Positions 7,188-61,438 of a DNA stretch of 64,000 nt are shown here, one piece after another. A model generated the notes under the pieces. It saw only the letters and a list, made by a program, of their open reading frames with translations. It had not been told where the DNA came from and searched no databases. The stretch's first letter is position 1; every line of letters begins with the position of its first letter. Source of the DNA: Winogradskyella aurantia (GTDB lineage Bacteria; Bacteroidota; Bacteroidia; Flavobacteriales; Flavobacteriaceae); contig NZ_NGJN01000002.1 of the NCBI RefSeq assembly GCF_002266855.1, positions 1-64,000 on the forward strand, written 5' to 3'. The position numbers and the translations under genes are program-made.

Positions 7188-7548
7188 AAGCGTAGGTTTT
7201 AGGGTTGCAAAATAAGTTTTTTTCAGAAATCGTGCCAAAACCCAAGGATTTTAAATGAACCTATTTTTAATAGAGTCTTCTAAACCCCATGGAATTGGCC
7301 TCAAAATGAAATATAACAGCTAAGCTACTACTCCGTAACAAAGTTAGTATGGCTCATAAAACAGGATAAAACTTAGTTATTTAGGGTTGGTTGTAAGCTG
7401 CTCGTTTAGATGTGAATAGACGGATGTGGTTTTTGAAATGATTTTAAACCTATAGTTTTAGAATATATTTATGATAATTATCAGTTATAAGATTTAATGA
7501 AAGGCGTATATTAGAGGTAGAAATTAGTAATTAAAAATAAGATAGACT
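7188..7548. other. Divergent intergenic region, lipoprotein/hpf
   Basis: This 361-base gap contains the hpf control region (7472-7514, listed separately). I see no ORF, no tRNA and no strong hairpin in the rest. Confidence 0.6.
7472..7514 (+). promoter_or_regulatory. Crp/Fnr-type operator and -7 box of hpf
   Basis: The perfect palindrome TGAT-AATT-ATCA (7472-7483) matches the FNR core TGAT-N4-ATCA. Exactly 23 bases downstream stands TATATTAG (7507-7514), one mismatch from TAnnTTTG. Expected start site is about 7519, 30 bases before the hpf ATG. The geometry equals that of the other members of the set described in the findings. Confidence 0.75.
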
Positions 7549-7848
7549 ATGACGGTAAATTTTCAGTATGTCAATACGGACGTTAGTGAAGCCTTATCAG
7601 CTTTTACAACAGAACGACTAGAAAAATTGGCAAATAAATTTGAATTTATCATTTCTGCGCAAGTGTACATTAAGCATGATGACAATAAGCACGATGCAGG
7701 TAAAATTTGTAATATAGAGTTGAGTTTACCGGGCCCACGGATCTTTGCGACGTCCAATGAGCGCACCTATGAACTTGCGGTAACGGAAACCATTAACGAT
7801 TTAACAAGACAATTAAAAAAGCGCAAGCAGACTTATAAAACACACTAA
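7549..7848 (+). CDS. hpf: Short-form ribosome hibernation promoting factor
   Basis: The 99-residue protein matches HPF/YfiA (raiA): beta-alpha-beta-beta-beta-alpha fold with the start VNFQYVNTDVSEALSAFTTERLEKLANKF and the segment NDLTRQLKKRKQTYK, whose basic helix binds the 30S decoding site. It has only the single S30AE domain and lacks the C-terminal dimerisation domain of long HPF, so it would act like E. coli HPF/YfiA on stalled or resting ribosomes. It is monocistronic, with its own Fnr-type promoter just upstream and a small hairpin downstream, so hibernation here is probably induced by the same signal that controls the stress cluster. Confidence 0.9.
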   Translation: MTVNFQYVNTDVSEALSAFTTERLEKLANKFEFIISAQVYIKHDDNKHDAGKICNIELSLPGPRIFATSNERTYELAVTETINDLTRQLKKRKQTYKTH

Positions 7849-7857
7849 CATACATAA

Positions 7858-7875
7858 AAAACGTTCCGACGTTTT
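7858..7875 (+). terminator. Weak hairpin after hpf
   Basis: AAAACGT-TCCG-ACGTTTT forms a 7-bp stem followed by ATA. It lies 10 bases past the hpf stop and just before the convergent rlmH end. A modest terminator. Confidence 0.4.
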
Positions 7876-7897
7876 ATACCAGAGGGTTTACTGTTTT

Positions 7898-8371
7898 TCA
7901 TCCGTGATGATAGGGTTCATTTCTTAAAATAGTAAACCCCCTGTATAACTGTTCTACAAAGAACAATCGTACCATCTGGTGGGAAAATGTCATTTTAGAA
8001 AGGCTTAGTTTTCCATTGGCTCTTTGGTAAATCGCATCCGAAAAGCCGTATGGGCCGCCAATAACAAACACCAACGATTTAATTCCTGAATTCATATACT
8101 TCTGTAAGTCATTGGCAAAAGCAACAGAGGTCAATGCTTTACCACGTTCATCTAAAAGCACAAGCACCTCTGGGTTTTGTACCTTTGAAAGAATAAGCTC
8201 GCCTTCCTTCTCCTTTTGTTGTGCTTCAGAAAGGTGTTTGGCCTTTTTTATGTCTGGTAAAACCTCAAATTCAAATTTAATATAATGGCCCAAGCGCTTT
8301 TCATAATCTTCTATAAGCGTTTGAAGGTTAGTATTGTCGGTTTTGCCTATGGCGAGGAGTTTAATCGTCAT
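7898..8371 (-). CDS. rlmH: 23S rRNA pseudouridine-1915 N3-methyltransferase
   Basis: The 157-residue SPOUT methyltransferase RlmH methylates pseudouridine 1915 in helix 69 of 23S rRNA on assembled ribosomes. Diagnostic parts are present: N-terminal IKLLAIGKTD, LDERGKALTS, the SAM-knot segment FVIGGPYGFSDAIYQRAN, and C-terminal LSKMTFSHQMVRLFFVEQLYRGFTILRNEPYHHG. Length is normal. A TAnnTTTG element (CAAAGTTA at 8377-8384 on the plus strand) lies so close that the message could be nearly leaderless. It is divergent from nadC. Confidence 0.96.
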   Translation of the reverse strand: MTIKLLAIGKTDNTNLQTLIEDYEKRLGHYIKFEFEVLPDIKKAKHLSEAQQKEKEGELILSKVQNPEVLVLLDERGKALTSVAFANDLQKYMNSGIKSLVFVIGGPYGFSDAIYQRANGKLSLSKMTFSHQMVRLFFVEQLYRGFTILRNEPYHHG

Positions 8372-10258: not shown

Positions 10259-10261
10259 GTG

Positions 10262-32367: not shown

Positions 32368-32415
32368 GGCTTTTTCGGACTTTTTCACGGTATTCACTAC
32401 TATTCTAATGACAAG

Positions 32416-47860: not shown

Positions 47861-48951
47861 TATTGCGCTTTATAAATTACAGTATTTTCCGCCAGGCCAG
47901 ACCGTATCTCCACGTATTCCATACTCTCTAAACCAATCTCTATGGTTTTGAGTCCAACATCGGTCAATACCTTAGTATCATCAACGATATAAGCCTTCGG
48001 AATAGTGAGCACGTCCTTGTGTTGGTCAATGATAATGTTGGCTTCTCCAGAAAGTCCGGGATACAGTTTTGGCGGTGGCACGTTAAAAAGGGCTTCTACC
48101 AAAAAGGTCTGGTTTCTTTCATCCTTCTTTGGAAATATTTTTGAGATTTTAGCTTCAAAGACCTGATCTTGATAAGCCTCTAGGGTTACCAATACGTTTT
48201 GCCCCAAAGAGACATTAACAATATCCACTTCGTCCACTAATAATTCAATAACAAAATGGGTGGCACTACCAATGGACGCCAATGGCTCCATGGTGGTAAC
48301 CAATTCACCAGGCTCTTTGTATAAGGCATATAGTTTACCGGACATAGTACTCTTAATGGTAAAATCCTTGGTTGCTATGAGTGAGGATTTATAGTTGTTC
48401 TGTGCTTGTTCTAATGCCGTTTTAAGCTCATTTTCTGTACGTTTTAATTTATCTCTTAGGAGGTTTAAGGAATTGAGCGATAATTGATAGGCCAGTTTTT
48501 TACTGTCGTATTGCGCTTTGGAGCCAATATTCTGTTTCCAAAGGCTAGCTTGTCTAAAAAAATTGATGGAGTCGTTTCGATACCGAAGCTCTGCAGCATC
48601 GATTTCATCGGCGATACCTTTTAAGATAGCGGAGCTGCCCCGGTAATTTTGATAGGCAAGGTCATAGGCCAGTTTAGCGTTTTGGGTGTTGAGTTTTGGT
48701 GTGTTATTCGTAATCTGAATGATGGGTTGGTCCTTTACAATAAGGTCGCCCTCCTCAACAGGGATGTTGTCTATGATACCCGAAACAATGGCGTAGACCT
48801 CATAAATACTATCGGGTTGAACGATGACAGAGGCATAAATAGATTCGGTAATAGAGCGCCGTTGTACTGTAGTTTGCTCCTTGGTTTTAGCACAGGAGTA
48901 AACAACCAATACAAGCAAGGGCAGAGGCCATAATCGTATCCATCTAAACAT
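47860..48951 (-). CDS. HlyD/MacA-type periplasmic adaptor lipoprotein
   Basis: The 363-residue protein has a lipobox (LVVYSCAKT), a lipoyl domain split around a long helical hairpin (about 85-200), and the barrel with FEAKISKIFPKKDERNQTFLVEALFNVPPPKLYPGLSGEANIII. It links the permease to an outer-membrane channel not encoded here. Function: export of an unknown substrate. Adjoins the WG-repeat gene. Confidence 0.88.
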   Translation of the reverse strand: MFRWIRLWPLPLLVLVVYSCAKTKEQTTVQRRSITESIYASVIVQPDSIYEVYAIVSGIIDNIPVEEGDLIVKDQPIIQITNNTPKLNTQNAKLAYDLAYQNYRGSSAILKGIADEIDAAELRYRNDSINFFRQASLWKQNIGSKAQYDSKKLAYQLSLNSLNLLRDKLKRTENELKTALEQAQNNYKSSLIATKDFTIKSTMSGKLYALYKEPGELVTTMEPLASIGSATHFVIELLVDEVDIVNVSLGQNVLVTLEAYQDQVFEAKISKIFPKKDERNQTFLVEALFNVPPPKLYPGLSGEANIIIDQHKDVLTIPKAYIVDDTKVLTDVGLKTIEIGLESMEYVEIRSGLAENTVIYKAQ

Positions 48952-49560
48952 TTAAATTTTTTTAATGGAATAGGTGTTGTTTTTGTCCTTGATAGCAATG
49001 ACCTGTTTGTTTAAAAACTTAGATCTAATTTCCGGTGGTCTGGGCAAAAAATTCTTGGATAATGTAATATGAGTTGGTTTTTTAGATAAATAATGGACGA
49101 TGTCTCCATTGGGGTTTATGGTTAACTCCATATAATTATAGTCAATCATGCGTTTATCCAGAACATCGTTTTGTCCAATAACATCTTTATAGAGTTTAAG
49201 GATAATGGCTAATCCATTATTAAAATTGGTCGCATTTAAAAACTGTGGCTCAATAACGGTTTTACCGCTTGTATCAATGTACCCAAAGTATGATATACCC
49301 TTTTTCTCTTCAACGATCAAACAACGTTCGGAATTAAAAACAGGATAGGCCATATCATCCATTGAAGAGACGACGACATCACTTCTATAGTCGATAACAA
49401 GCTCCCCATTAGTAGTAATGAACGCCCATTCATTTCCCTTTTTAATCGCTGCTAAACCTTCATGAAATGGCGAAATATAGTCAATCCCACTTATATCTTG
49501 AGGGTACATAAATAGGGGAAACATAATTATAGCCGTAAAAAAAAGAATCAAATGTCTCAT
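48952..49560 (-). CDS. Secreted WG-repeat-like protein
   Basis: The 202 residues have a signal peptide (LILFFTAIIMFPLFMYPQ). WG-type repeats follow: YISPFHEGLAAIKKGNEWAFITTNGELVID, and KKGISYFGYIDTSGKTVIEPQFLNATNFNNGLAII. WG (KWG Leptospira) repeats form small beta modules for binding. The gene heads the exporter operon and carries the Crp/Fnr-type promoter. Confidence 0.75.
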   Translation of the reverse strand: MRHLILFFTAIIMFPLFMYPQDISGIDYISPFHEGLAAIKKGNEWAFITTNGELVIDYRSDVVVSSMDDMAYPVFNSERCLIVEEKKGISYFGYIDTSGKTVIEPQFLNATNFNNGLAIILKLYKDVIGQNDVLDKRMIDYNYMELTINPNGDIVHYLSKKPTHITLSKNFLPRPPEIRSKFLNKQVIAIKDKNNTYSIKKI

Positions 49561-49587: not shown

Positions 49588-49630
49588 TAAAACTAAACCC
49601 AATAGTGTAGTAAAACAATGACATTGGTCA
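49588..49630 (-). promoter_or_regulatory. Crp/Fnr-type operator and -7 box of the exporter operon
   Basis: TGAC-ATTG-GTCA (49619-49630, perfectly symmetric core) is followed on the minus strand after exactly 23 bases by TAGTTTTA (49588-49595). Expected start is about 49583, 23 bases before the ATG. Confidence 0.8.
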
Positions 49631-49646: not shown

Positions 49647-49946
49647 TTAATTGGAATTTTCAATGACCTTTATAAGGTCTGCTTTTTGTAAGACCCCAGA
49701 CTGGCGCCAAACTTGCTTACCGTTTTTAAATAAAATCATCGTGGGCACACCTCTAACTTGATATTTTGAGGCCAGCAACTGATTTTTGTCTACGTCAATT
49801 TTAACTATCTTAACGCGTTCGCCAAGTTCTTCCTTAACGGCCTTTAAAACCGGTGCGAGCATTTTGCAGGGGCCACACCAATCGGCAAAAAAATCTACCA
49901 AAACGGGTGTGTCGGAATTGATGATAGTACTAAAACTAGATTTCAT
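49647..49946 (-). CDS. trxA: Thioredoxin
   Basis: The 99-residue protein has the active site FFADWCGPCKMLAPVL, the cis-Pro segment VRGVPTMILFKNGK and the GVLQKADL ending. A disulfide reductant. It overlaps the TerB-like gene by four bases and sits next to the stress cluster, so it may be a second, stress-related thioredoxin. Confidence 0.93.
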   Translation of the reverse strand: MKSSFSTIINSDTPVLVDFFADWCGPCKMLAPVLKAVKEELGERVKIVKIDVDKNQLLASKYQVRGVPTMILFKNGKQVWRQSGVLQKADLIKVIENSN

Positions 49947-50317
49947 GTGTTTATTTTTTTAAATTCTAAACTCAATTTTGCTATATAATGTAATTCATTT
50001 TTGCTCATTTTGGCAAAGGCATAGGCTATCTTATTGGCGCTGCGCAATAGCAAGGTCCTCAGCGCTTTGGTAAACTCCTCGGGGTGTTGGTGCACGTAGG
50101 CTATAAATGCATCAAAACAAGATTCAGGAGATCTATTGGCTTTTTGTAATGCATTAAATTGTGTTGTAATCACTTCAATCTGTTCCTCATCCAAGGACGT
50201 CCAGTGCCTTTTCAAAATTTCCGTCAAACTGCGGTACTCATCCATTGACAAGGTGTTATCTGCCTTGGCAATGGCATAGAACAAATAACTGATATGTTGT
50301 AATAAGGCAACGGTCAT
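49943..50317 (-). CDS. TerB-like helical protein
   Basis: The 124-residue all-alpha protein has the TerB-like sequence ISYLFYAIAKADNTLSMDEYRSLTEILKRHW with an acidic Asp/Asn turn, and a second helix pair rich in Phe/Ala. TerB-like domains are linked to tellurite or stress responses and bind metals. It is divergent from the sensor-kinase gene, and a weak TACCTTGT lies at the corresponding distance (50354-50361) from the shared TGAT-N4-ATCA site. Family call moderate. Confidence 0.55.
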   Translation of the reverse strand: MTVALLQHISYLFYAIAKADNTLSMDEYRSLTEILKRHWTSLDEEQIEVITTQFNALQKANRSPESCFDAFIAYVHQHPEEFTKALRTLLLRSANKIAYAFAKMSKNELHYIAKLSLEFKKINT

Positions 50318-50384: not shown

Positions 50385-50433
50385 TGATAATGATCAGATT
50401 CATCATTTAATAGGCACTAATTTCGTATCTTTA
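50385..50433 (+). promoter_or_regulatory. Overlapping Fnr-type boxes and -7 box of the kinase operon
   Basis: A perfect TGAT-AATG-ATCA (50385-50396) overlaps TGAT-CAGA-TTCA (50391-50402). The second one has the standard 23-base distance to TATCTTTA (50426-50433). Expected start is about 50438. This suggests that the regulator pair controls its own operon. Confidence 0.65.
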
Positions 50434-50460: not shown

Positions 50461-52344
50461 ATGCTGAGACAAGACCAGGAAATATTCAATATTCTTTTAG
50501 AGACGGTTTCTGAAGCCGTTATAATTGTCGATGAAAAACAGCGCATCATGGAAATCAACAAGGTTGCGGAAGGTGTGTTTGAATACGACAAGGAAGAGAT
50601 TAAAGGCAAGCCCTTAACGATACTCATGCCTTCCAATTACCATGAAAAGCATCAGGAATATGTTGAAAATTTCATTGAGGAATATCAACAGCGCAAAATG
50701 GGTAAAACCACTGATGTTTATGGTCTCAAGAAATCCGGGGAAATTATTCCCATTGAAGTGGCCCTGAATCCGTTTAAGATCTATGATAAGATCTATGTCA
50801 TGGCCTTAATTAAGGATGTCTCTAAGCAAAAGGAAAGTGAGCTCGACCTTATGTTGCGGAGTAAAGCTTTAGAATCCGCGAGTAATGGTATATTAATCAC
50901 CGATGCGCTAAGGCCAGATAACCCCATCATTTATTACAATAGCGCATTCTTAGAGCTCACGGGCTATTCAAAAGAAGAAGTTTTAAATAAGAACTGTCGC
51001 TTTTTGCAGGGTGAGGATAGAGATCAAAAGGGATTGGATAAACTAAGGGAAGCAATAAAGCAAGGTGAGAATTGCTTGGTGACCTTACGTAATTATAAAA
51101 AGGACGGTACCTTATTCTGGAACGATCTGTATGTGACTCCGATTAGAAACGAAAGAGGTACAATTACTAATTTTATAGGTATTCAAAATGACGTTACGGA
51201 GCGCGTTAGGGCAGAAGAGGAGCGCAGCCATTTGGCAACCATCTTTAATGAATCCCTCAACGAGATTTATGTGTTCGACGCAAATACCTTAAAATTTATT
51301 AACGCCAACAGAGGGGCCTTGAAAAATATCGGTTATACCCTGAGCGAACTAAAAACAATGACACCCCTGGACTTAAAGGTGGTGAAAAACGAAAAACAGT
51401 TTAGGACGCGTTTCACAGAACCCCTTATCCATAAAGTGGAAGAGCGTCTGGAATTTGAGACCACCCATAAGCGAAAGGACGGGTCAACCTACCCGGTAAA
51501 TGTGCATTTACAACTCTCCCATTTGAATGAAAGACCTGTTTTTGTGGCTATAATAGTGGATATTTCTGAGCAAAAGGAATATACCACAAAACTAGAGAAA
51601 AAGGTGGAAGAGCGAACCGAACAGCTACAAATGGCCTTGAGCAAGGAAAAGGAGCTCAATGAGTTAAAGACTAAATTCCTGTCCCTGGTCTCTCACGAAT
51701 TTAAGACCCCATTGAGCGGAATCTCAACTTCCGTTATGCTGCTTGAAAAATACAAGCGTACGGAAGAACAGGACCGAAGAAATCGGCACCTGGCCATTAT
51801 AAGGGATAAGGTGCAGTACTTGAATACCATTTTAAATGACTTCCTGTCCATTGAGCGTCTGGAGTCTGGCACCATCTATTATAAGTTCAATGAATTTAAA
51901 TTGAGCAAGGTCATCAATGAAGTGGTCTATAATGCCAACATGTCCCTAAAGGAAGGACAGAACATCAATTACCCCTCAAATATCAATGAGATGAATATGT
52001 TTCAGGATGAGCGTATTATGGAGTTAGCCCTCACTAATATTGTTCAGAATGCCATTAAATATTCAGCAGAACATTCAAAAATCGATATCAGGGTATCACA
52101 GGATGATACATTTACGGTTATCGAGGTGGAGGACCAAGGCATTGGGATACCGGAGAAGGATATTAATAATGTGTTTTCGCGCTACTTCAGGGCCGAGAAT
52201 ACGCTCAATATACAAGGGACAGGCATAGGGCTAAATATCGCCCAGACCCATATTGAGAATTTAGGCGGTACTATCACCATAGCCAGCGAAGAGCATAAAG
52301 GCACCATTGTAACACTTAAAATACCCACGACCAAACATGACTAA
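50461..52344 (+). CDS. PAS-LOV-PAS sensor histidine kinase
   Basis: The 627-residue cytoplasmic kinase has PAS1 (about 8-120), PAS2 (about 135-248), PAS3 (about 258-372), a coiled coil, HisKA with phospho-acceptor H412 (LSLVSHEFKTPLSG) and HATPase_c (about 500-627, DQGIGIPEKDI, GTGIGLNIAQ). PAS2 is a LOV domain: NCRFLQGEDRD with adduct Cys179, Arg180 and Gln183, plus flavin contacts N211, N221 and Q242. PAS1 resembles FixL (ILMPSNYHEKHQEY): His64 aligns with the haem-ligand His, but the distal Arg of FixL is Thr here, so haem binding is uncertain. It overlaps the response-regulator gene by 8 bases. Confidence 0.88.
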   Translation: MLRQDQEIFNILLETVSEAVIIVDEKQRIMEINKVAEGVFEYDKEEIKGKPLTILMPSNYHEKHQEYVENFIEEYQQRKMGKTTDVYGLKKSGEIIPIEVALNPFKIYDKIYVMALIKDVSKQKESELDLMLRSKALESASNGILITDALRPDNPIIYYNSAFLELTGYSKEEVLNKNCRFLQGEDRDQKGLDKLREAIKQGENCLVTLRNYKKDGTLFWNDLYVTPIRNERGTITNFIGIQNDVTERVRAEEERSHLATIFNESLNEIYVFDANTLKFINANRGALKNIGYTLSELKTMTPLDLKVVKNEKQFRTRFTEPLIHKVEERLEFETTHKRKDGSTYPVNVHLQLSHLNERPVFVAIIVDISEQKEYTTKLEKKVEERTEQLQMALSKEKELNELKTKFLSLVSHEFKTPLSGISTSVMLLEKYKRTEEQDRRNRHLAIIRDKVQYLNTILNDFLSIERLESGTIYYKFNEFKLSKVINEVVYNANMSLKEGQNINYPSNINEMNMFQDERIMELALTNIVQNAIKYSAEHSKIDIRVSQDDTFTVIEVEDQGIGIPEKDINNVFSRYFRAENTLNIQGTGIGLNIAQTHIENLGGTITIASEEHKGTIVTLKIPTTKHD

Positions 52345-53386
52345 AGTATTGATTATAGAAGACGATAAGGTATTAAAGGAAAATATAGCGGAACTCTTAG
52401 AGCTTTTGAAATATGATGTCGTAACGGCATCAGACGGAAAGGAAGGCCTAACACTAGCCAAGTCAATCCACCCAGACATTATCGTCTGCGATATCATGAT
52501 GCCCAAAATGGACGGCTACGAGGTGCTGGATAATCTGTCTAAAAACAAACAGACAAAATACATTCCATTTATTTTCCTTTCAGCAAAAACAGAACATCAG
52601 GATATTAGAAAGGGTATGAATATGGGTGCAGATGATTACATCACCAAGCCCTTTACTGAAGACGAACTGGTAAGTGCCATTAAGAGTAGACTGGCCAAAG
52701 CCGCTATCTTGGAAGATCGCCGTAATTTAGGTCATGCGTCCATAGAGGAAGAGGATGAATTACGGTCCTTAAATGACTTAAAGAATTTCTTTGATGACTA
52801 TGGTGAGATATTTAAGTACAAGAAAAATGACATCATTTACCATGAAGGGGATCACTCCAATTACATCTATTTAATTACCCAAGGCGCGGTTAAATCCCAT
52901 AAGCTAGATGAATACGGCAAGGAATTAGTGACAGGCTTGTTTAAGGAAGATGATTTGTTCGGTTATACCTCCTTTACACATAACCTACCCCACAGAGAAA
53001 CGGCCACTGCCATTAAGAAGACCGAATTAAGAGGTGTTTCCATACTTCAATTGTCGCAAATTCTCAGTGACAACCATAAGGTCGCCATAGAACTGCTAGA
53101 CCTTTTGACGGATGATCTGTCAAACATCAAGGAACAACTCTTGCAAATGGCTTATAGTTCGGTAAATAAAAAAACCGCAGACACCATTATACAATTTGCC
53201 GAAAAAATAAACCGAAAACCAGAAGACCCCATAAAAATATCCAGGCACGATTTAGCAAGTGTGGCCGGCGTAGCCACAGAGACTTTTATAAGAACCCTTA
53301 CCAATTTTAAAAAAGAGGGCATCATAAAAACAGAAGGTAGAAATATTGTGGTCATGGATTTAGAGCGTCTCAAGGAAATACAGTAG
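52337..53386 (+). CDS. Receiver-Crp/Fnr fusion response regulator
   Basis: The 349-residue protein has a receiver domain (1-120) with D52 as phospho-acceptor (IIVCDIMMPKMDG) and K104. A cNMP-binding-like domain (about 150-265: KYKKNDIIYHEGDHSNYIYLITQGAVK) and a Crp-type winged helix (about 297-345) follow. The recognition helix reads GVATETFIRTLTNF: Glu315 and Arg319 are placed as in FNR (Glu209, Arg213) and CRP. Such a helix would read a TGA core. No N-terminal Cys cluster for [4Fe-4S] exists (only Cys51), so signal input should come from the kinase. Strongest local candidate for the factor that binds the operators. Confidence 0.88.
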   Translation: MTKVLIIEDDKVLKENIAELLELLKYDVVTASDGKEGLTLAKSIHPDIIVCDIMMPKMDGYEVLDNLSKNKQTKYIPFIFLSAKTEHQDIRKGMNMGADDYITKPFTEDELVSAIKSRLAKAAILEDRRNLGHASIEEEDELRSLNDLKNFFDDYGEIFKYKKNDIIYHEGDHSNYIYLITQGAVKSHKLDEYGKELVTGLFKEDDLFGYTSFTHNLPHRETATAIKKTELRGVSILQLSQILSDNHKVAIELLDLLTDDLSNIKEQLLQMAYSSVNKKTADTIIQFAEKINRKPEDPIKISRHDLASVAGVATETFIRTLTNFKKEGIIKTEGRNIVVMDLERLKEIQ

Positions 53387-53399: not shown

Positions 53400-53442
53400 T
53401 GATTCTCGTCATTGTAGAGTTAATTTTAGGCTTATACTTTTA
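53400..53442 (+). promoter_or_regulatory. Fnr-type operator and -7 box of USP gene 1
   Basis: TGAT-TCTC-GTCA (53400-53411) is followed after exactly 23 bases by TACTTTTA (53435-53442). Expected start is about 53447, 17 bases before the ATG. Confidence 0.75.
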
Positions 53443-53463: not shown

Positions 53464-54309
53464 ATGAAAAGTGTTTTGCTTCCCACTGATTTTTCCGAGA
53501 ATTCATGGAACGCCATCATATACGCACTCCAATTTTTAAAGGATACACCAGCAGTATTTTATTTACTTCATGTAAATACGGTTAATCATACTATTTTGAG
53601 CGATCCGGCTTATGTAGGTGCTGACAGCGTCATAGAAGAGGTTTATATTAAACCAGCCAAGACTAAACTTTTAAAACTTTTAAAACGTATTTCCAAGGTA
53701 TCACATAATGTAAACCACAGGTTCTATACTATAGTGGACTATGGCTTTTTTATCGATTCCATCAGGAGTCAAGTCCTCGATAAAAATATTGATTTAATTA
53801 TCATGGGCACCAAAGGGGCCTCGGGCCTCAAGCAAATCATCATTGGCAGTAACGCAGGTGATGTGGTGGTTAAGGTAAAATGCACCACCTTGGTAGTGCC
53901 CGAAAATGCCAAATTCCAAATTATTGATGAGCTCGCCTTTCCAACAGATTTTTCGTCGTTCAACAATTTCAGTATGCTTAAACCAGTATTGGAAGTTATG
54001 GAAAACAACAATTCCAAACTGAGCTTTTTGCATGTCCAAAGTAAAAATGAAAGCTTAAGTTTAGAACAAAAAAAGAATAAGGAGCTCTTGGAGGATTTTT
54101 TCAGTGGCTATGACTATGATTTTTATTTTCTCAGCAATAAGCGTTTAGAAGATGCTGTTCAATGCTTCACCGAAAGTAGGGGCGTGGGCATGATCGCCAT
54201 GGTCGCTAAGAACCTCAATTACTTTCAGCAAATCGTATTTAACTCTAGGGTAGAAAACATTACCTATCACACAGATATACCTTTTTTAGTATTACATGAA
54301 ACCACTTAA
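53464..54309 (+). CDS. Universal stress protein, tandem domains (USP 1)
   Basis: The 281-residue protein has two UspA domains. The first (1-145) opens MKSVLLPTDFSENSWNAI and has the ATP-binding loop MGTKGASGLKQIIIGS (G-2x-G-9x-G-S). The second (150-281) starts ELAFPTDFSSFNNF and lacks the loop, so only one nucleotide site per chain is expected. USPs aid survival under energy and oxygen stress. First of five paralogues. A small membrane protein follows 9 bases on. Confidence 0.92.
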   Translation: MKSVLLPTDFSENSWNAIIYALQFLKDTPAVFYLLHVNTVNHTILSDPAYVGADSVIEEVYIKPAKTKLLKLLKRISKVSHNVNHRFYTIVDYGFFIDSIRSQVLDKNIDLIIMGTKGASGLKQIIIGSNAGDVVVKVKCTTLVVPENAKFQIIDELAFPTDFSSFNNFSMLKPVLEVMENNNSKLSFLHVQSKNESLSLEQKKNKELLEDFFSGYDYDFYFLSNKRLEDAVQCFTESRGVGMIAMVAKNLNYFQQIVFNSRVENITYHTDIPFLVLHETT

Positions 54310-54318: not shown

Positions 54319-54705
54319 ATGGAACTATCGTTATTTTTTGCAAAATTTTGGGGTTGGTATCTAATAATTTTCTTTTTGATTCTCAGCTTAAATCCCAAAC
54401 GGATAAAACAGATTTTTGAAGATTTAAAAGATGAGAAATTTTTAATCCTAATTTCCTTTATTGCTATAATTATCGGTCTTACCAATATTATTTTGCACAA
54501 TATCTGGGAGCTTAATTATAAGATTATCATTACGCTTATAGGGTGGTTCTCACTGTTTATAGGCTTGGCATTGTTTATTTTTCCCAAGTGGACCGTCGAT
54601 TGGCTAAAGGTGACCAATGTAAAATTTGTTCAAGTGATGTACACCCTGCTTTTTTTGGTGGGTCTGTTCTTATTGAACATGGTATATCAAATTATTCCCT
54701 ATTAG
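54319..54705 (+). CDS. Small membrane protein of the USP cluster
   Basis: I do not recognise a family. The 128 residues contain four predicted spans (about 7-22, 40-60, 70-88, 103-124) with no charged motif. It is in the transcription unit of USP 1. A second promoter starts within its last codons and the following gap. Confidence 0.6.
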   Translation: MELSLFFAKFWGWYLIIFFLILSLNPKRIKQIFEDLKDEKFLILISFIAIIIGLTNIILHNIWELNYKIIITLIGWFSLFIGLALFIFPKWTVDWLKVTNVKFVQVMYTLLFLVGLFLLNMVYQIIPY

Positions 54706-54712
54706 GGAAAAC

Positions 54713-54755
54713 TGACCAATATCATTTTTACAGCGGTGTTGGTTTAATACATTTA
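54713..54755 (+). promoter_or_regulatory. Fnr-type operator and -7 box of small RNA 2
   Basis: TGAC-CAAT-ATCA (54713-54724) is followed after exactly 23 bases by TACATTTA (54748-54755). Expected start is about 54760, with no gene before the hairpin at 54810. Confidence 0.65.
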
Positions 54756-54759
54756 CAAT

Positions 54760-54840
54760 CCATTAAGGTAGAGGATTCCTTAATTTTATTTATGTGCTAT
54801 TAATCAATGGGAAAACCAGATTGTTATCTGGTTTTCCTAT
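54760..54840 (+). ncRNA. Candidate small RNA 2, about 80 nt
   Basis: It runs from the predicted start to a perfect 11-bp hairpin (GGAAAACCAGA-TTGTTA-TCTGGTTTTCC). A 5' hairpin ATTAAGG..CCTTAAT (54763-54785) is near the start. The only ATG opens a three-codon frame, so it is noncoding. Evidence is the promoter-hairpin arrangement only. Confidence 0.5.
54810..54837 (+). terminator. Hairpin terminator, USP 1 unit and small RNA 2
   Basis: An 11-bp perfect stem with a 6-base loop. Its 3' side contains TTTT and it is followed by a mixed T-rich stretch. It can end both the USP 1 message and the RNA candidate. Confidence 0.65.
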
Positions 54841-54874
54841 GTTTATAAGGAATCTATAAAAAAATGGTAAAAAC

Positions 54875-54917
54875 TGATTTATATCATTTTATAGGTTGCC
54901 TTTATACACTAAATTAG
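54875..54917 (+). promoter_or_regulatory. Fnr-type operator and -7 box of small RNA 3
   Basis: TGAT-TTAT-ATCA (54875-54886) is followed after exactly 23 bases by TAAATTAG (54910-54917). The operator plus flanks (ACTGATTTATATCATTTT) are identical to the hsp20 operator. Confidence 0.7.
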
Positions 54918-54921
54918 TGCT

Positions 54922-55092
54922 TATTAAAAGGGGGCTTTTAATAAACATAATTAGGGCATTTGAAGCTATGATAGTGTTGTAAGTACTTTCAGTTTTTCTT
55001 AAGATGGAAAGATGTCTTTAAACTGCTACGAAAACAGTATTATAAAATTAAATGTCCCAGGAAACAGGAAGTTTAGGCTTCCTGTTTCTGCT
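54922..55092 (+). ncRNA. Candidate small RNA 3, about 170 nt
   Basis: The predicted start falls on the first base or two of a perfect 10-bp hairpin (TTATTAAAAG-GGGG-CTTTTAATAA, 54921-54944), a typical stabilising 5' structure. A second perfect 10-bp hairpin closes it (55062-55087). No ORF longer than 5 codons starts inside. USP 2 has its own later promoter, so this is not simply its leader. Confidence 0.55.
55061..55088 (+). terminator. Hairpin ending small RNA 3
   Basis: AAACAGGAAG (55062-55071) pairs perfectly with CTTCCTGTTT (55078-55087). A weak T tract (CTGCTTTT) follows. Confidence 0.6.
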
Positions 55093-55140
55093 TTTGGTAC
55101 TTAGGCTAAGTTTTGCACCTGTTCTAACACCCCATATCGC

Positions 55141-55183
55141 TGATATAAATCATTGTAGCCCTTCCCGCAATGCCATAATTTTA
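55141..55183 (+). promoter_or_regulatory. Fnr-type operator and -7 box of USP genes 2-4
   Basis: TGAT-ATAA-ATCA (55141-55152) is followed after exactly 23 bases by TAATTTTA (55176-55183). Expected start is about 55188, 19 bases before the ATG. Confidence 0.8.
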
Positions 55184-55206
55184 ATACGTTAAAAAATGTA
55201 TCCAAC

Positions 55207-56058
55207 ATGAAACGTATACTCATACCTACCGATTTTTCCGAAAACGCCATGAATGCTGTTCGCTATGCCTTAGAATGTTTTAAAAACGACAAGGCTGAAT
55301 TCTATTTGCTGCACGCTTACCAAGATGAGGTCTATAACAATCACGATTTACTCGAGGAGGAACTCTTTGAAGAGGTTCTCGAAATTGCTAAAAATCGCTC
55401 ACAGCTAAAGTTAGACTTGCTACTCAATGAAGTGAAGACCATTGCACCAAACCCAAAATTTAAATTTCATCTCGTATCGGCCTATAATGCGCTTCTAGAT
55501 GAGGTTGATAAATTGGTTATAGGTAAGAACATAGACTTGATCGTGATGGGTACAAAAGGAGAAAGTGCCAATAAGAGCTACGCTTTTGGAAGCAACACGC
55601 TTCAGGTATTAAAATATGTGTCTTGCCCCGTATTGGTTATTCCAGAATATTACGGCTATAAACAACCGAAACACGTCCTTTTCCCAACCAACTTTTTAAT
55701 CCCTTATAAAAAACGAGAAATGGAGTTAGTAGCTGATATGCTATCACCCTTTAAATCAGTGGTAGAGGTACTCTATATTTCAAAGGTGGCCAAATTATCC
55801 AAACGTCAAAAGGATAATCAAGAGTTCATAAAGGACGAACTAGACCAACTAGACCTTAATTTCAAGACCATTCAAAGTAAGAAGGTTTCAAAAGCCATAA
55901 CCGCCTATGCGGCAGACCATAAAATCGATTTATTGATCATGGTCAATACTAGCCAATCCTTTTTAGAGGATATGCTATTTCGGTCTAAGGTAGACGATAT
56001 ATGCCTGCATACCGATATTCCGTTTTTGGCCTTACAAAATATCAGAAGAACCGTTTAA
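55207..56058 (+). CDS. Universal stress protein, tandem domains (USP 2)
   Basis: The 283-residue protein begins MKRILIPTDFSENAMNAVRYALECFKND. The first domain has the ATP loop MGTKGESANKSYAFGS; the second starts KHVLFPTNFLIPYKKREMELV and lacks it. It heads USP 2-3-4, whose coding regions nearly abut. Confidence 0.92.
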   Translation: MKRILIPTDFSENAMNAVRYALECFKNDKAEFYLLHAYQDEVYNNHDLLEEELFEEVLEIAKNRSQLKLDLLLNEVKTIAPNPKFKFHLVSAYNALLDEVDKLVIGKNIDLIVMGTKGESANKSYAFGSNTLQVLKYVSCPVLVIPEYYGYKQPKHVLFPTNFLIPYKKREMELVADMLSPFKSVVEVLYISKVAKLSKRQKDNQEFIKDELDQLDLNFKTIQSKKVSKAITAYAADHKIDLLIMVNTSQSFLEDMLFRSKVDDICLHTDIPFLALQNIRRTV

Positions 56059-56070
56059 ATGACCATAACG

Positions 56071-56913
56071 ATGAAAAAGATCTTATTACCCACCGATTTT
56101 TCAGACAATTCCTGGAATGCCATAAAATATGCCTTACAGTTACTTAAGGATGAGGACTGTAGCTTTACCATCCTGCACACCTATACACCAATTATTTATC
56201 AGGTAGAATTTGTGCTTATTGGTCCGGCTCAAAATGGTTTGGGTGATGCCATTAGGGATGTGGCCGAAGGTAAAATGAAGGCGCTATTGGACAGAATAGA
56301 TACCGAATTCCCCAATAGCAAACACCAATTCGAGGGCCATTGCATATTTAGTACCTTGATTACTGAAATTAAGGAACTTACGGAAAAGAAGCAGTTCGAC
56401 TATGTCATTATGGGCACTAAAGGAGCCACAGGCGCCAAGGAAGTCCTATTTGGGTCTAATACGGTCCAAGTATTTAAACATGTAAAGTGTCCTATTTTGG
56501 CCATTCCAGATGATTTTGAGTTTGAACGACCTCTTGAAATCCTATTCCCTTCAGATTATGAGGTCACCTTTACGGAAAGTCATATCAAACCCCTTTTAGA
56601 TATAGCAAAAGCCTACAACAGTAGAATCAATGTGATGCATGTCTCCTTTGGTTATGAGTTAACGGACACCCAGAAAAAAAACAGAGATCTCCTAGAAATT
56701 TATTTTGGTAGCGTCGCCCATTTATTTCACGACATGCGCCATGAGAATTTAACCGATGCCATTGATGAATTTCAATTAAAGGCCAGGGTTAATTTGTTGG
56801 TGATGCTAAACAATAAGCACTCGTTTTTTGAAAATCTATTTTTCAAGTCTACCCTAAATCAAATAGGGTTCCATCTTAACATACCATTTTTGGTTATCCC
56901 ATCACAATTATAA
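56071..56913 (+). CDS. Universal stress protein, tandem domains (USP 3)
   Basis: I prefer ATG at 56071, because all paralogues start MK(K/R)xLLPTDFS. An ATG at 56059 directly after the USP 2 stop would add four residues. The first domain has the loop MGTKGATGAKEVLFGS. The second (LEILFPSDYEVTFTESH) is degenerate. About 280 residues. Confidence 0.9.
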   Translation: MKKILLPTDFSDNSWNAIKYALQLLKDEDCSFTILHTYTPIIYQVEFVLIGPAQNGLGDAIRDVAEGKMKALLDRIDTEFPNSKHQFEGHCIFSTLITEIKELTEKKQFDYVIMGTKGATGAKEVLFGSNTVQVFKHVKCPILAIPDDFEFERPLEILFPSDYEVTFTESHIKPLLDIAKAYNSRINVMHVSFGYELTDTQKKNRDLLEIYFGSVAHLFHDMRHENLTDAIDEFQLKARVNLLVMLNNKHSFFENLFFKSTLNQIGFHLNIPFLVIPSQL

Positions 56914-56924
56914 AAACAGGACTT

Positions 56925-57755
56925 ATGAAACGCCAGATATTATTACCAACGGATTTTTCAGATAACGCCTGGAGTGCCATTGCTTATGCCATTAAACTTT
57001 TTAAAAATGAGGAATGTACCTTTTACATTTTGAATTCAATAGCCTTAAAGGCATCCACCATGTCCACATCTGCAACTAAGGTGTTAAGGGCTATGGAGGA
57101 TAATGCCAGAAAGGAACTTTACGAATTGAAAAACCAGATAGAAACCTCAGAGACCAATACCGGTCATGAATTTATAACCATTATAAGTACACTAGACCTC
57201 TATGATGCTATTGAGGTAGAGATGGAGAAAAACCATATCGATTTGGTAGTGATGGGCACCAAAGGAGCCACGGGCGCCAAGGAGTTTTTCTTTGGCAGCA
57301 ATACGGTTAAGACCATAAAGAGAATGAATAAAGGCGCCATTCTTGTCGTGCCCGATGAGTATGATTATGTCACCCCAAGACAAATAGCCTTTCCAACCGA
57401 TTTTAATCGAAACTTTAGCGAAGAGGAGTTGCAGCCATTAAAAGTTATGGCGGCCTTGCACAACTCCAAAATCAGGATTTTGCACATCCACGAGGAAGAG
57501 AAATTGAGTCCAAAACAAGAACACCATTTCGATTGCTTAATAAATCATTTCGAAGGTTTTGAGTACAGTTTTCATTGGATGCCAGATTACAGTACCAAGG
57601 AAAGGGAGATCAAGGAATTTGTGGAGGACCTAGAAATTGACATGCTTTGTATGGTCCATACCAAACACAGCTGTATAGCGCGCATAACGCATGAGCCAGT
57701 AATCAATAAAATAGGGTTTAAGCCCATAGTGCCATTTTTGGTGATATCGGTTTAA
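56925..57755 (+). CDS. Universal stress protein, tandem domains (USP 4)
   Basis: The 276-residue protein begins MKRQILLPTDFSDNAWSAIAYAIKLFKN. Loop MGTKGATGAKEFFFGS lies in domain 1, and domain 2 starts RQIAFPTDFNRNFSEEEL. It is closest to USP 3 in its loop, suggesting recent duplication. It begins 11 bases after USP 3. Confidence 0.92.
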   Translation: MKRQILLPTDFSDNAWSAIAYAIKLFKNEECTFYILNSIALKASTMSTSATKVLRAMEDNARKELYELKNQIETSETNTGHEFITIISTLDLYDAIEVEMEKNHIDLVVMGTKGATGAKEFFFGSNTVKTIKRMNKGAILVVPDEYDYVTPRQIAFPTDFNRNFSEEELQPLKVMAALHNSKIRILHIHEEEKLSPKQEHHFDCLINHFEGFEYSFHWMPDYSTKEREIKEFVEDLEIDMLCMVHTKHSCIARITHEPVINKIGFKPIVPFLVISV

Positions 57756-57757
57756 GT

Positions 57758-57800
57758 TGATCGATATCATTGTTACAGGCCTAAGACCAATGTAAATTTA
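57758..57800 (+). promoter_or_regulatory. Fnr-type operator and -7 box of USP gene 5
   Basis: TTGAT-CGAT-ATCAT contains the core TGAT-N4-ATCA (57758-57769) and is the nearest to the textbook FNR box. TAAATTTA (57793-57800) follows after exactly 23 bases. Expected start is about 57805. Confidence 0.82.
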
Positions 57801-57823
57801 AGACCTATCCAAAATCAACAGTG

Positions 57824-58675
57824 ATGAAACGTAAGATATTATTACCCACAGATTTTTCCAAGAATTCATGGCATGCTATTAATTATGCCCTAGAGCTTTT
57901 TGGATCAGAACCATGCCAGTTCTATCTCTTCAACGCTTTCTCCGCGACTAATGATTTAATGCAGAGCCTAATGAATATGATGCCCGGAACAGAGCTTTAC
58001 GAAAAGGCAAAAGCCCACTCAGAAACAGGTTTGGCGCAAATGATGGATATGCTGGTGCTCAATCAGGACACTAAAGCCATCCATAAATTTGAGACCATTT
58101 CCATGTTCAACAGCCCTGTTGAGGGCATTAAAACCCTTGTGGATAAAAAGGATATCGAGATGATCATTATGGGCACCAAGGGCGAAACGGCCTCCATTTC
58201 CATGACTTATGGAAGTACCGCTGTAAATGTTATGGAAAAAGTGCGCCATTGCCCTGTACTGGTCGTGCCAGAAAAAGCCAAACACAGCATCCCTAAGGAA
58301 ATTGTTTTTCCTACGGATTACAAGATTCCTTTTAAAATGAAGGAACTGAAGTACCTCATTGACATTGCAAAAATCACCCATGCCACCATTCAGGTCGTTC
58401 ATATTGATGAAGGTGAGTTAAGTGAGGACCAGTTAAGGAATAAAGCCTTATTGCAAGACTATTTGGGTACGGTTAAGTTTAATTTTAGGTTGATGAGTCG
58501 CATGCACGTACCCACAGCAATCAAGTGCTTTGTAGAAAGCAGGGAGAGCGATATGTTGGCCTTTATCAATAAAAAGCACCTCTTTTTTGGAAGCATCTTA
58601 AATCAGGCATTGGTTAAGGAGATAGGTCACGATGCTAAGGTACCCATATTGGTACTACACGATAAAACTAATTAA
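57824..58675 (+). CDS. Universal stress protein, tandem domains (USP 5)
   Basis: The ATG at 57824 follows an overlapping GTG at 57821. The 283-residue protein starts MKRKILLPTDFSKNSWHAINYALELFG, with loop MGTKGETASISMTYGS in domain 1 and KEIVFPTDYKIPFKMKELKYL opening domain 2. It has its own operator and is followed closely by three genes that may share its transcript. Confidence 0.92.
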   Translation: MKRKILLPTDFSKNSWHAINYALELFGSEPCQFYLFNAFSATNDLMQSLMNMMPGTELYEKAKAHSETGLAQMMDMLVLNQDTKAIHKFETISMFNSPVEGIKTLVDKKDIEMIIMGTKGETASISMTYGSTAVNVMEKVRHCPVLVVPEKAKHSIPKEIVFPTDYKIPFKMKELKYLIDIAKITHATIQVVHIDEGELSEDQLRNKALLQDYLGTVKFNFRLMSRMHVPTAIKCFVESRESDMLAFINKKHLFFGSILNQALVKEIGHDAKVPILVLHDKTN

Positions 58676-58687
58676 AACATAAACATC

Positions 58688-59083: not shown

Positions 59084-59161
59084 GCGCTAGTAGCATAGCA
59101 TTTGGGCTAATTTAAATAGGCAGCCAGATTTCAAAACCGTACGTTACCTAAGACGTTAATT

Positions 59162-60004
59162 ATGACACATAAATCTATAGAGGTTATCAAATCAAGTGGT
59201 AAGAGGGTCAAGTTTTCATTGAGTAAACTGCGGTCCTCCCTGAAGAGAAGTGGCGCCAGCAAGGAAACGATTGACTCTATCATCGATACGGTACGCGACG
59301 AACTCTATCAAGGTATTTCCACCAATGAAATATACAACAGGGCTTTTGCGCTTCTTAAAAAGAAAAAGAGCTCGCTCGCCTCTAGGTATAAATTAAAAAA
59401 AGCCATTTATGAGCTCGGCCCAACAGGTTTTCCTTTTGAGCGGTTTATCAAAGAGGTATTGAGCTACTCCGGCTATACCGCTGCGGTTGGGGAAATACTT
59501 CAGGGTAAGTGCGTCTCTCACGAAATTGATGTCATCGCCCATAAAGGTAAGGAGACCACAATAGTAGAATGCAAGTTTCACAGGGAACAAGGCTTAAAAT
59601 GCGATGTTAAGGTGCCTCTGTATATCCAATCGCGTTTTAAGGATGTGGAGGCGTATTGGGTGGCCAATAGAAATAACCATACGGTACTTACCCAAGGTTG
59701 GGTGGTAACCAATACCCGGTTTACCGAGGATGCCATTCAATATGGTCGTTGCTGCGGCTTGTATCTCTTAAGCTGGGATTACCCAAAAGGGGAAAGCCTG
59801 CGAGACCGCATAGACCAGTTGGGACTATACCCCATTACCGTCTCTACGTTGCTGACCAACCGGGAAAAGCAGTTCTTGCTCAGTCGTAATGTGGTCCTGT
59901 GCAGGCAATTGATAGGTGATGCCTTTTATTTAGATCATCTCGGAGTTTCGGACACAAGAAAAGAAAAGATACTCAATGAGATCCAAAACCTCTGTAATGC
60001 GTAA
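59162..60004 (+). CDS. ATP-cone/Mrr-like endonuclease protein
   Basis: The 280-residue protein has an N-terminal ATP-cone-like domain (about 1-90: IEVIKSSGKRVKFSLSKLRSSLKRSG, SIIDTVRDELYQGISTNEI), as in ribonucleotide reductase regulators. A PD-(D/E)xK nuclease domain of Mrr type follows (about 95-225), with catalytic EIDVIAHKGKETTIVECKFH (Asp..Glu-x-Lys). A C-terminal helical region ends it. It may cleave nucleic acid in response to nucleotide level. Position downstream of USP 5 and before the beta-CASP gene is unusual for a defence enzyme. Confidence 0.7.
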   Translation: MTHKSIEVIKSSGKRVKFSLSKLRSSLKRSGASKETIDSIIDTVRDELYQGISTNEIYNRAFALLKKKKSSLASRYKLKKAIYELGPTGFPFERFIKEVLSYSGYTAAVGEILQGKCVSHEIDVIAHKGKETTIVECKFHREQGLKCDVKVPLYIQSRFKDVEAYWVANRNNHTVLTQGWVVTNTRFTEDAIQYGRCCGLYLLSWDYPKGESLRDRIDQLGLYPITVSTLLTNREKQFLLSRNVVLCRQLIGDAFYLDHLGVSDTRKEKILNEIQNLCNA

Positions 60005-60013
60005 TACGGAATT

Positions 60014-61387
60014 ATGAAACCAATAGTAACATTACATTTTTTAGGAGGTGCGGGTACCGTAACGGGCTCCAAGTTTGTATTGGAAACCTCTGAGATTAAC
60101 CTTATGGTAGACTGTGGTATGTTTCAGGGCCTTAAGGAATTGCGGCTATTGAATTGGGAGGATTTACCCGTTGATGTGGCAGCCATAGATATGGTCTTGC
60201 TCACTCATGGCCATTTAGACCACGTGGGCTATTTACCGCGATTGGTAAAACAGGGCTTCAAAGGAAAGATCATGGGTACGGCACCCACTCTGGCTATCGC
60301 AGAAATCATTCTTAAGGACAGTGCCAAAATACATGAGGAAGACGCTGAACGGGCCAATAAGGAACACTATACCAAACACCAGCCGGCCCTACCATTTTAC
60401 ACGGTTAAAGAGGCCGAAAATACCCTGAGCTATTTCAAAGTGGCACAGGTCGATGAGTGGTTGCCCTTATCAGAGCACGTTTCGGTGCGATTCCAGTATA
60501 ATGGCCATATCATCGGCGCTACCTTTATTGAGTTAGATATCAATGGTAAACGCTTTGTATTCTCTGGGGATGTGGGTAGAAACAATGACTATCTGCTAGA
60601 CAATCCAAAAAAGCCCGAGTGGGCCGATTATCTTTTTATAGAAAGTACCTATGGCGATCGCAGGCACCCAGAAGAGGATCTAGACACTATTTTTGTCAAT
60701 TTAATTATGGATACCCTTCAAAAAAAGGGCAACCTTATTATCCCAAGTTTTGCGGTGGAGCGCCTGCAGACCCTGATGTATGTGCTTTGGAAACTCTATC
60801 AGTCGCATAAGATTCCCAATATTCCTATTTATATCGATAGTCCCATGGGGCATAATGTACTCCAGGTATTTAAGCGCTTTCCCAATTGGCATAAACTTTC
60901 AGATGCGGAATACAACGCCATGTGCCAACACGTTAACATCGTGAGCTCCTACAAGGAAACTTGGGAGACCATTGATAATAAACGGCCTAAGGTGGTGATT
61001 GCCGGTAGTGGTATGGTTACGGGCGGAAGGGTGCTAACCTATTTGCAACAGTTCATTGATGAGCCCAGTACTACCGTACTGCTAGCGGGTTATCAAGCCG
61101 AGGGTACCCGTGGCCGACAACTTTTGGACGGCGCACACGAACTGAAGTTTTTCGGCAAATATTATCCGGTAAAGGCGAGAATTGAACATATAGAGAGTCT
61201 ATCGGTCCATGCCGATCAAGAGGAGCTCTTGGAGTGGGTGAGTGGTATTAAGAACATCCCCGAACAGGTCTATTTAATACACGGTGAGGCCTGCGCCCTC
61301 AACGCCTTTAGGGTAAAACTTGAAACCACCTTAAAGTGGAGGGTAACGGTACCGAAAATAAATAGTACGGAGCGACTTGTTATTTAG
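60014..61387 (+). CDS. Beta-CASP metallo-beta-lactamase RNA nuclease
   Basis: The 457-residue protein has the MBL motif LTHGHLDHVGYLPRL, a beta-CASP insert and the RMMBL tail (ARIEHIESLSVHADQEELLEW). It contains SGDVGRN, FIESTYGDR and IAGSGMVTGGRVL, the order seen in the CPSF73-like group without a KH domain. Members are predicted RNA endo/exonucleases. It starts 10 bases after the Mrr-like gene. In other genomes this family recurs beside USP genes. Confidence 0.85.
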   Translation: MKPIVTLHFLGGAGTVTGSKFVLETSEINLMVDCGMFQGLKELRLLNWEDLPVDVAAIDMVLLTHGHLDHVGYLPRLVKQGFKGKIMGTAPTLAIAEIILKDSAKIHEEDAERANKEHYTKHQPALPFYTVKEAENTLSYFKVAQVDEWLPLSEHVSVRFQYNGHIIGATFIELDINGKRFVFSGDVGRNNDYLLDNPKKPEWADYLFIESTYGDRRHPEEDLDTIFVNLIMDTLQKKGNLIIPSFAVERLQTLMYVLWKLYQSHKIPNIPIYIDSPMGHNVLQVFKRFPNWHKLSDAEYNAMCQHVNIVSSYKETWETIDNKRPKVVIAGSGMVTGGRVLTYLQQFIDEPSTTVLLAGYQAEGTRGRQLLDGAHELKFFGKYYPVKARIEHIESLSVHADQEELLEWVSGIKNIPEQVYLIHGEACALNAFRVKLETTLKWRVTVPKINSTERLVI

Positions 61388-61395
61388 TAGCAAAC

Positions 61396-61438
61396 TGATT
61401 TATATCATTTTAGGAAATCTATAAGAGCATTACATTTA
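61396..61438 (+). promoter_or_regulatory. Fnr-type operator and -7 box of hsp20
   Basis: TGAT-TTAT-ATCA (61396-61407) is followed after exactly 23 bases by TACATTTA (61431-61438). The operator and flanks equal those at 54872-54890. Expected start is about 61443. Confidence 0.8.

Follow-up and report, generated by a model that had tools for sequence, protein, structure and literature searches.

Promoter modules and the genes behind them

The first 64 kb of contig C11 of Winogradskyella aurantia (the window hereafter; 38% G+C, host genome 3.2 Mb) carries 18 copies of a promoter module made up of a 12-nucleotide (nt) palindromic core, 23 nt and a Bacteroidota-type -7 box TANNTTTR. The window also encodes, on the forward strand, a PAS-PAS-PAS-HisKA-HATPase histidine kinase (50461-52344) and a response regulator of receiver-cNMP_binding-HTH_Crp_2 architecture (52337-53386), here called REC-Crp and proposed as the activator. 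All 18 sites of a preliminary description of this DNA were present, and in each the core was followed after exactly 23 nt by a box with no or one mismatch. That description had placed 17 of them at the fixed distance and called the -7 box of the DUF6799 gene weak, but this exception falls away, the box TACATTTA (34256) being as good as the others. Its core types were recovered, with 13 perfect TGAY-N4-RTCA cores, two perfect TAAC-N4-GTTA cores (31967 and 41995) and one mixed core (cydA, 36973), while the cores at 34461 (RNA 1) and 50391 (kinase) had one mismatch.

On the forward strand, modules were found before hpf (module 7472-7514, box TATATTAG with one mismatch; gene 7549-7848, Ribosomal_S30AE), the D-isomer 2-hydroxyacid dehydrogenase gene (23916-23958, exact; gene 23986-24990), the kinase gene (50391-50433, weak with one core mismatch and not conserved), USP 1, the first of the universal stress protein (USP) genes (53400-53442, exact; gene 53464-54309), RNA 2 (54713-54755, exact; RNA at about 54762-54842), RNA 3 (54875-54917, box TAAATTAG with one mismatch), USP 2-4 (55141-55183, exact; genes 55207-57755), USP 5 (57758-57800, exact; gene 57821-58675) and hsp20 (61396-61438, exact; gene 61450-61929). 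On the reverse strand, they preceded the genes for CDP-alcohol phosphatidyltransferase (25708-25750, exact; gene 25059-25691), a tolC-type protein (31925-31967, exact TAAC type, probably belonging to another Crp regulator; gene 30594-31907), DUF4405 (32416-32458, exact; gene 31930-32418) and DUF6799 (34214-34256, exact; gene 33530-34186), followed by RNA 1 (34419-34461, mixed TAAC..GTGA with the core mismatch; RNA from about 34412 to 34300), cydAB (36931-36973, mixed TGAC..GTTA; genes 35567-36913 and 34519-35556), peroxiredoxin (41953-41995, exact TAAC type; gene 41200-41928), a cytochrome c/Tll0287-like protein (45803-45845, one box mismatch; gene 44761-45777) and a WG-repeat protein with HlyD-ABC exporter genes (49588-49630, exact; genes 45924-49560). 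Pfam assigned the window targets to Hpf, D-isomer 2-hydroxyacid dehydrogenase, CDP-alcohol phosphatidyltransferase, DUF4405, DUF6799, cytochrome c, the exporter operon, universal stress proteins and Hsp20; USP 3 and USP 4 were identified from the preliminary description and from homologues in other loci, not from Pfam.

The window contained 52 oriented perfect cores, equal to 26 palindromes because the core pattern is self-complementary, compared to a mean of 20.6 (standard deviation 5.8) in 200 dinucleotide shuffles. At a spacing of 23 these cores gave 17 oriented matches (16 distinct palindromes) with at most one box mismatch, 13 of them exact. All other spacings from 0 to 59 gave at most 4 matches with a box mismatch allowed and at most 2 exact ones, so 23 was the sole peak. 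The preliminary description had held that the module should be less frequent in shuffled sequence, and the shuffles bore this out with means at spacing 23 of 0.375 (at most one mismatch) and 0.045 (exact); no spacing ever exceeded 5 and 2, respectively. A relaxed scan of the window produced extra matches within genes, as expected by chance. Chance as the source of the module was ruled out by the spacing peak together with the shuffles, and base composition by controls with the reversed pattern.

Across the whole genome the TGAY type gave 47 matches at spacings of 18-28, of which 39 were at exactly 23; the reversed pattern gave 3 and 1, respectively. A TTG lay 19-21 nt from the box in 5 of the 39 exact modules and was absent in 34, in line with the earlier statement that most lack a TTG at -33, and the final base of the box was A (TTTA, not TTTG) in 26 of the 39. 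For 48 TGAY modules with at most one box mismatch, taken from the window and from stretches fetched around the genome matches, an open reading frame (ORF) picked by a simple script started within 70 nt of the box in 39. The exact modules were clustered, as 10 of the 39 fell in the window (binomial p 4e-9) and 19 of the 39 within 160 kb of the start of contig C11 (p 5e-15).

Outside the window, 30 of the 34 downstream proteins were scanned for families, and 4 of these 30 had none. The targets there included a CcoNO-type oxidase protein (frame starting 216 nt from the box), a metal-transporting ATPase read as CcoI type (one box mismatch) and a radical SAM protein which, from its N-terminus, we take to be HemN-like. 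A pyruvate formate-lyase-like protein, formate-tetrahydrofolate ligase, PPK2, triosephosphate isomerase, two proteins of the phosphoenolpyruvate (PEP)-synthase/pyruvate phosphate dikinase type, two CBS-domain proteins, another USP, two pyridoxamine-oxidase-like proteins, a cation P-type ATPase and others were also present. A gene at L013:4927-6867 behind a module encodes a fusion of a protein-isoaspartate methyltransferase-like and an erythromycin-esterase-like domain. This gene content suggests a role in low-oxygen survival. The sequence data support the earlier reading of the module as the site of a Crp/Fnr-type activator, placed in a fixed class II-like geometry before low-oxygen and survival genes on either strand.

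The exact TGAY module was present in 137 of 149 genomes of the family, with 2154 copies against 80 of the reversed pattern. In twenty REC-Crp neighbourhoods (398 kb), 86 exact modules had a spacing of 23, and none of the other spacings between 5 and 44 gave more than 6. The promoters of 45 USP1, USP2 and Hsp20 orthologues contained 46 cores; when boxes were sought at all spacings from 5 to 45, 44 of these cores had one (at most one mismatch) at 23, 36 of them exact, against at most 8 boxes at each other spacing; the 23 bases between core and box varied freely by eye. Counted at spacing 23 only and with at most one box mismatch, as was also done for the kinase promoter, the module was kept before USP1 in 23 of 24 loci, before USP2 in 13 of 13 and before Hsp20 in 8 of 8 (3 with an exact box). 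Sequence statistics thus establish the modules, their fixed spacing and their conservation at orthologous promoters.

The PAS kinase and REC-Crp

REC-Crp matched PF00027 (59 bits) and PF13545 (53 bits), both above cut-off, and has the cNMP-binding beta-roll and the Crp-type winged helix-turn-helix of the Crp/Fnr family. The receiver residues D9, D10, D52, S82 and K104 of response regulators were kept in 12 of 12 relatives. The cAMP-pocket residues of CRP are Gly-Glu ... Arg-Ser/Thr. When 12 REC-Crp rows were aligned by eye, the residue after Gly was Tyr in 10 and Phe in 2, and the Arg position held Glu (10), Asn (1) or Thr (1). On these sequences REC-Crp has a Crp/Fnr fold and is not a cAMP-type CRP; with the receiver residues kept and the pocket positions changed, phosphorylation, not cAMP, is its likely switch. 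The recognition helix is of the E..IR type (ETFIR). The predicted model (predicted local distance difference test, pLDDT, 81; predicted template modelling score, pTM, 0.59) found CRP proteins as best Foldseek matches (best E 1e-15), with FixK2 at rank 18. No NCBIfam model was above cut-off among the best 25 of 105 for this protein.

REC-Crp was present in 66 of the 149 family genomes and, at the level of the phylum, in 43 of 296 genomes, none of the 43 outside the class (E <= 1e-40). A second REC-Crp subgroup of about 40% identity occurred alongside the main one in several genomes.

For the first PAS domain of the kinase, the best solved-structure matches were the DosP haem PAS (1e-11) and FixL (1e-10), and FixL and DosP haem domains also ranked first against its predicted fold (pLDDT 84). 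A histidine at the haem-ligand position (His64 in the window kinase) was found in 29 of 30 kinases beside REC-Crp and was lacking in one. The window kinase combines, as FixL does, a PAS domain having this histidine with HisKA and HATPase domains. In the more distant L075 (Mucilaginibacter), L082 (Arcticibacter) and L085 (Sphingobacterium), the kinase carried the motif IIG(I/L)GREV, which is close to that of FixL.

A kinase homologue adjoined REC-Crp in the window and also in 29 of the 30 further loci, L077 being the one without. The order kinase, REC-Crp, USP1 was found in 20 of 20 family neighbourhoods; USP2-5, an ATP-cone protein, a beta-CASP protein and Hsp20 then followed wholly or partly in many family loci. 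The gene beside the kinase encodes a receiver-Crp protein and not a FixJ (receiver-NarL), a finding for this position only, as FixJ was not sought in the rest of the genome. The idea that the kinase gene has a conserved autoregulation was rejected, since 1 of 24 kinase promoters combined an exact core with a box at spacing 23; together with the core mismatch of the window copy, this makes autoregulation doubtful. A TerB-like gene (49943-50317) is divergent from the kinase gene, and in several relatives the module between the two faces the TerB-like gene, not the kinase.

The preliminary description had named no regulator. The best candidate is REC-Crp, encoded in what was there called the kinase operon.

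Regulation of the modules and related systems

Among the five other small Crp-type proteins of the genome, the closest paralogue of the REC-Crp output domain was a Fnr-like protein (C15:134172-134846) with 31% identity over 191 residues. Its recognition helix is also of the E..IR type (ESAIR). An N-terminal C-x2-C with more cysteines, which may be part of a Fe-S-binding set, was seen in this protein and two relatives, and NCBIfam Fnr scored 88 bits, below the cut-off of 228. The Fnr-like gene lies directly after USP1 in L155, L162 and L165. When presence of each regulator was called at E <= 1e-40 in the 149 family genomes, those with both REC-Crp and the Fnr-like protein (n=36) had a mean of 27.7 modules (minimum 9), those with REC-Crp only (n=30) a mean of 16.5 (range 6-37), those with the Fnr-like protein only (n=55) a mean of 10.7 and those with neither (n=28) a mean of 2.7 and a median of 1, with at most 3 modules in 24 of the 28. 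The reversed-pattern mean stayed at 0.4-0.7 across the four classes. Small genome size was ruled out as the cause of the low counts, since the 9 of the 28 genomes with neither regulator that were at least 2.5 Mb and at least 94% complete still had a median of 1. Statistically, then, module and regulators co-occur within the family, and the rise of the counts with each regulator is the main reason for naming both proteins as candidate readers of the module.

The preferred reading, given a probability of about 0.72, is that the TGAY modules are class II-type activator promoters used both by REC-Crp, phosphorylated at low oxygen, and by the Fnr-like protein. Given a box starting at -12 and a spacer of 23 nt, the centre of the palindrome would lie at -41.5, where Fnr and Crp of Escherichia coli bind at class II promoters. 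A Crp/Fnr-fold dimer bound about 41.5 bp upstream of the start would replace the missing -33 contact; the scarcity of TTG at -33 and the frequent A at the end of the box make activation, not repression, the natural reading. The adjacent PAS kinase would phosphorylate REC-Crp at Asp52 when oxygen falls, presumably through a haem signal, and REC-Crp would then turn on a survival programme of USPs, Hsp20, Hpf, CBS proteins, PEP synthase and small RNAs. The Fnr-like protein may drive the respiratory and fermentative set, namely the cbb3 oxidase, the HemN-like enzyme and pyruvate formate-lyase; we infer this assignment of regulators to promoters.

It is unlikely that the Fnr-like protein alone activates all TGAY modules, with REC-Crp a mere neighbour having other targets. 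The shared E..IR helix and the many modules of the Fnr-like-only genomes would fit such an arrangement, as would the classical Fnr-type targets that carry the module (CcoNO with its distant frame, the CcoI-type ATPase with its box mismatch, the HemN-like radical SAM protein and pyruvate formate-lyase). Yet the 30 REC-Crp genomes lacking a Fnr-like match at the threshold used still have modules, the modules cluster around REC-Crp in other genera, and the subtype RTCATTKYR made up a mean of 13% of modules in REC-Crp genomes versus 4% in those without (genomes with at least 5 modules, p 1e-8). As a clean signature of REC-Crp this subtype was rejected, being enriched but not exclusive, with at least one copy in 19 of 83 REC-Crp-negative genomes.

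The TAAC-N4-GTTA type had 7 matches in the genome at spacings of 18-28, 3 of them at 23, against 5 of the reversed pattern over the whole range, and is therefore weak in this genome alone. Across the family TAAC-N4-GTTA-N23-TAnnTTTG is real, occurring in 106 of 149 genomes, and relatives of a Crp-family regulator of the L006 type were found in 124 of the 149. A TAAC module lay 1-58 bp downstream of the L006-type gene on the same strand in 24 of 70 gene rows from other genera, which is not an unbiased rate, as 70 of at least 150 L006-type rows were compared to 120 TAAC rows, mostly in genomes having both. The L006-type protein of the present genome (G000 C15:23365-23997; L171, L028) has the helix SRVVVSR and a Cys-rich ligand domain. 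The site behind its gene, TAAC..GTCA, has a spacing of 22 and therefore falls outside the exact pattern; the next frame after it encodes, by eye, a YeeE-type membrane protein-like product.

The preliminary description had treated the 18 sites as a single regulon, which was not supported, as the TAAC class goes with its own Crp-family regulator. A different protein using the same geometry probably controls the tolC-type and peroxiredoxin genes and might also act at the mixed sites of cydA and RNA 1, and the 18 sites probably form two regulons, or two overlapping ones. That one regulator reads both core types appears quite improbable. The common 23-nt geometry and the mixed half-sites at cydA and RNA 1 speak for it, but the 24 of 70 rows in the selected set, the occurrence of TAAC modules in genomes with neither REC-Crp nor the Fnr-like protein (G073, G087 and G039) and the different recognition helix of the L006-type protein speak against it. 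Least probable of all is that the palindromes serve as operators for a repressor and overlap the -33 region, since, although a dimer there would cover that region too and geometry by itself is indecisive, a missing TTG and boxes ending in TTTA suggest weak promoters in need of help, and repression does not need one spacing fixed to the base.

Several results count against the preferred reading, in which REC-Crp and the Fnr-like protein both activate the TGAY modules. Activation is separated from repression by geometry alone. Three genomes with neither regulator (G048, G138 and G147) had 10-29 modules and a fourth had 5, which means that a divergent Fnr or some other regulator either exists or escaped detection, and the E <= 1e-40 cut could hide Fnr-like genes in the REC-Crp-only class. 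The genomes are related, and the tests overstate their independence. Outside the family, among genomes of the same order and class (the remaining same-phylum genomes, none with REC-Crp, were not included), the mean number of modules did not differ with and without REC-Crp (5.0 and 4.4; 27 vs 16 genomes, p 0.49). The window kinase has Thr at the FixL haem-pocket Arg position, which we take to be the distal Arg220; by our reading, Arg was present in 19 of 30 kinases, and one kinase lacks the haem-ligand histidine. Superposition of the REC-Crp model on whole CRP crystal structures gave TM-scores of about 0.3-0.5 and root-mean-square deviations of 15-18 A among the matches listed, so domain placement in the model is unreliable. 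The rarity of the module before the kinase gene belongs here as well. Separately, G413, from another family of the phylum, had 28 modules and no REC-Crp match at E <= 1e-40.

FixJ is a receiver with NarL-type output that acts through a separate fixK. DosR is a NarL-type regulator, its sensors DosS/T hold haem in GAF domains, and its regulon also has Hsp20, Hpf-like, CBS and P-type ATPase genes. Fnr/Anr regulons have a TGA-N6-TCA core, an E..R helix, a class II site at -41.5 and hemN, cbb3 and pyruvate formate-lyase targets, to which the module system can be likened. FixL-FixJ-FixK of rhizobia, and FixLJ-FixK of Burkholderia, resemble it in the FixL-like haem-PAS candidate kinase, the receiver, the Crp/Fnr-type output and a cbb3 oxidase among the module-bearing genes; here, however, the partner of the kinase is not a FixJ acting through a separate fixK, but a single protein that unites receiver and Crp/Fnr output and works at promoters with a Bacteroidota -7 box. 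Mycobacterial DosR/DosS shares two-component control of USPs at low oxygen but differs from the HTH_Crp_2 (not NarL-type) output and PAS sensor seen here. The Proteobacterial Fnr/Anr regulons differ from the present one in its Bacteroidota -7 box and in a second, receiver-bearing Crp paralogue that appears to share the module. According to extracts of PMC6127331, USPs make up 10 of the 48 genes of the DosR regulon, USPs of P. aeruginosa are under Anr, and a FixK-type regulator under FixLJ has been suggested for a Burkholderia low-oxygen locus with six USPs. In extracts of PMC11841059, NmpRSTU of Myxococcus xanthus has a haem kinase and two-component control of the cbb3 oxidase and hemN and, unlike the module system, a protoglobin sensor; its output regulator, also different, is NtrC-like. 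Searches of open-access literature, covering titles and abstract beginnings and leaving most subscription papers outside their scope, revealed no pairing of a receiver-Crp fusion with a FixL-like kinase.

The regulon thus appears real and known in kind, with Fnr/FixK-like class II control and dormancy-type targets, while the arrangement of sensor and activator looks new. By sequence, the window kinase and REC-Crp look like a FixL-FixJ-FixK chain in which FixJ and FixK have merged. It may be proposed tentatively, at slightly less than even odds, that in much of the Flavobacteriaceae FixL/FixJ/FixK has collapsed to a haem-PAS kinase and a receiver-Crp activator, that the rigid module is shared with the Fnr-like protein so that each promoter can have two oxygen/redox inputs, and that this dormancy regulon, with its small RNA, evolved separately from the DosR system of mycobacteria. 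If true, this would provide a large group of environmental bacteria with a defined regulon for surviving low oxygen, whose sensor, activator and promoter code can be named. Averaging 16-28 copies per REC-Crp genome against about 0.5 reversed, the 43-nt pattern would allow simple regulon prediction across genera; REC-Crp would be a test of whether the FixJ and FixK steps can merge, and the shared module raises the question of how two Crp paralogues divide one site.

Small RNAs and accompanying genes

Three modules precede putative small RNAs. No ORF of at least 80 codons was found at RNA 1, where only ORFs of that length were sought, and none of 50 codons started within 420 nt of the box of RNA 2. 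Behind the RNA 3 box the first ORF of 50 codons was USP 2, at 289 nt. No Rfam family reached its gathering score in the window, RNA 3 included. Hairpins with T-rich tails were seen by eye behind all three RNAs; a terminator scan of 54600-55250 called that of RNA 3 and not that of RNA 2.

RNA 3 (54918-55097, forward strand), a putative small RNA with a terminator hairpin and a module promoter, sits between two USP operons. Counterparts were present in the same place in 5 of 23 other loci scanned (L152, L154, L156, L159 and L160). The terminator hairpin AACAGGAAG..CTTCCTGTT was common to the window and these loci, and the promoter box recurred in L154, L156 and L160. The body was poorly conserved (51% mean column identity). 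L154 had two copies of the hairpin and L152, by eye, several variants.

Two other proteins accompany the USPs. Many loci retain a beta-CASP metallo-hydrolase (60014-61387 in the window) within the USP operon. Among NCBIfam models, its best match was Cas14 of type VII CRISPR with 389 of 800 bits, followed by aCPSF1 with 273 of 580; these scores are far below cut-off, so it is probably an RNA nuclease of another kind. The USP operon member at 59162-60004 has ATP-cone and Mrr-type nuclease domain matches and showed 61-74% identity where present.

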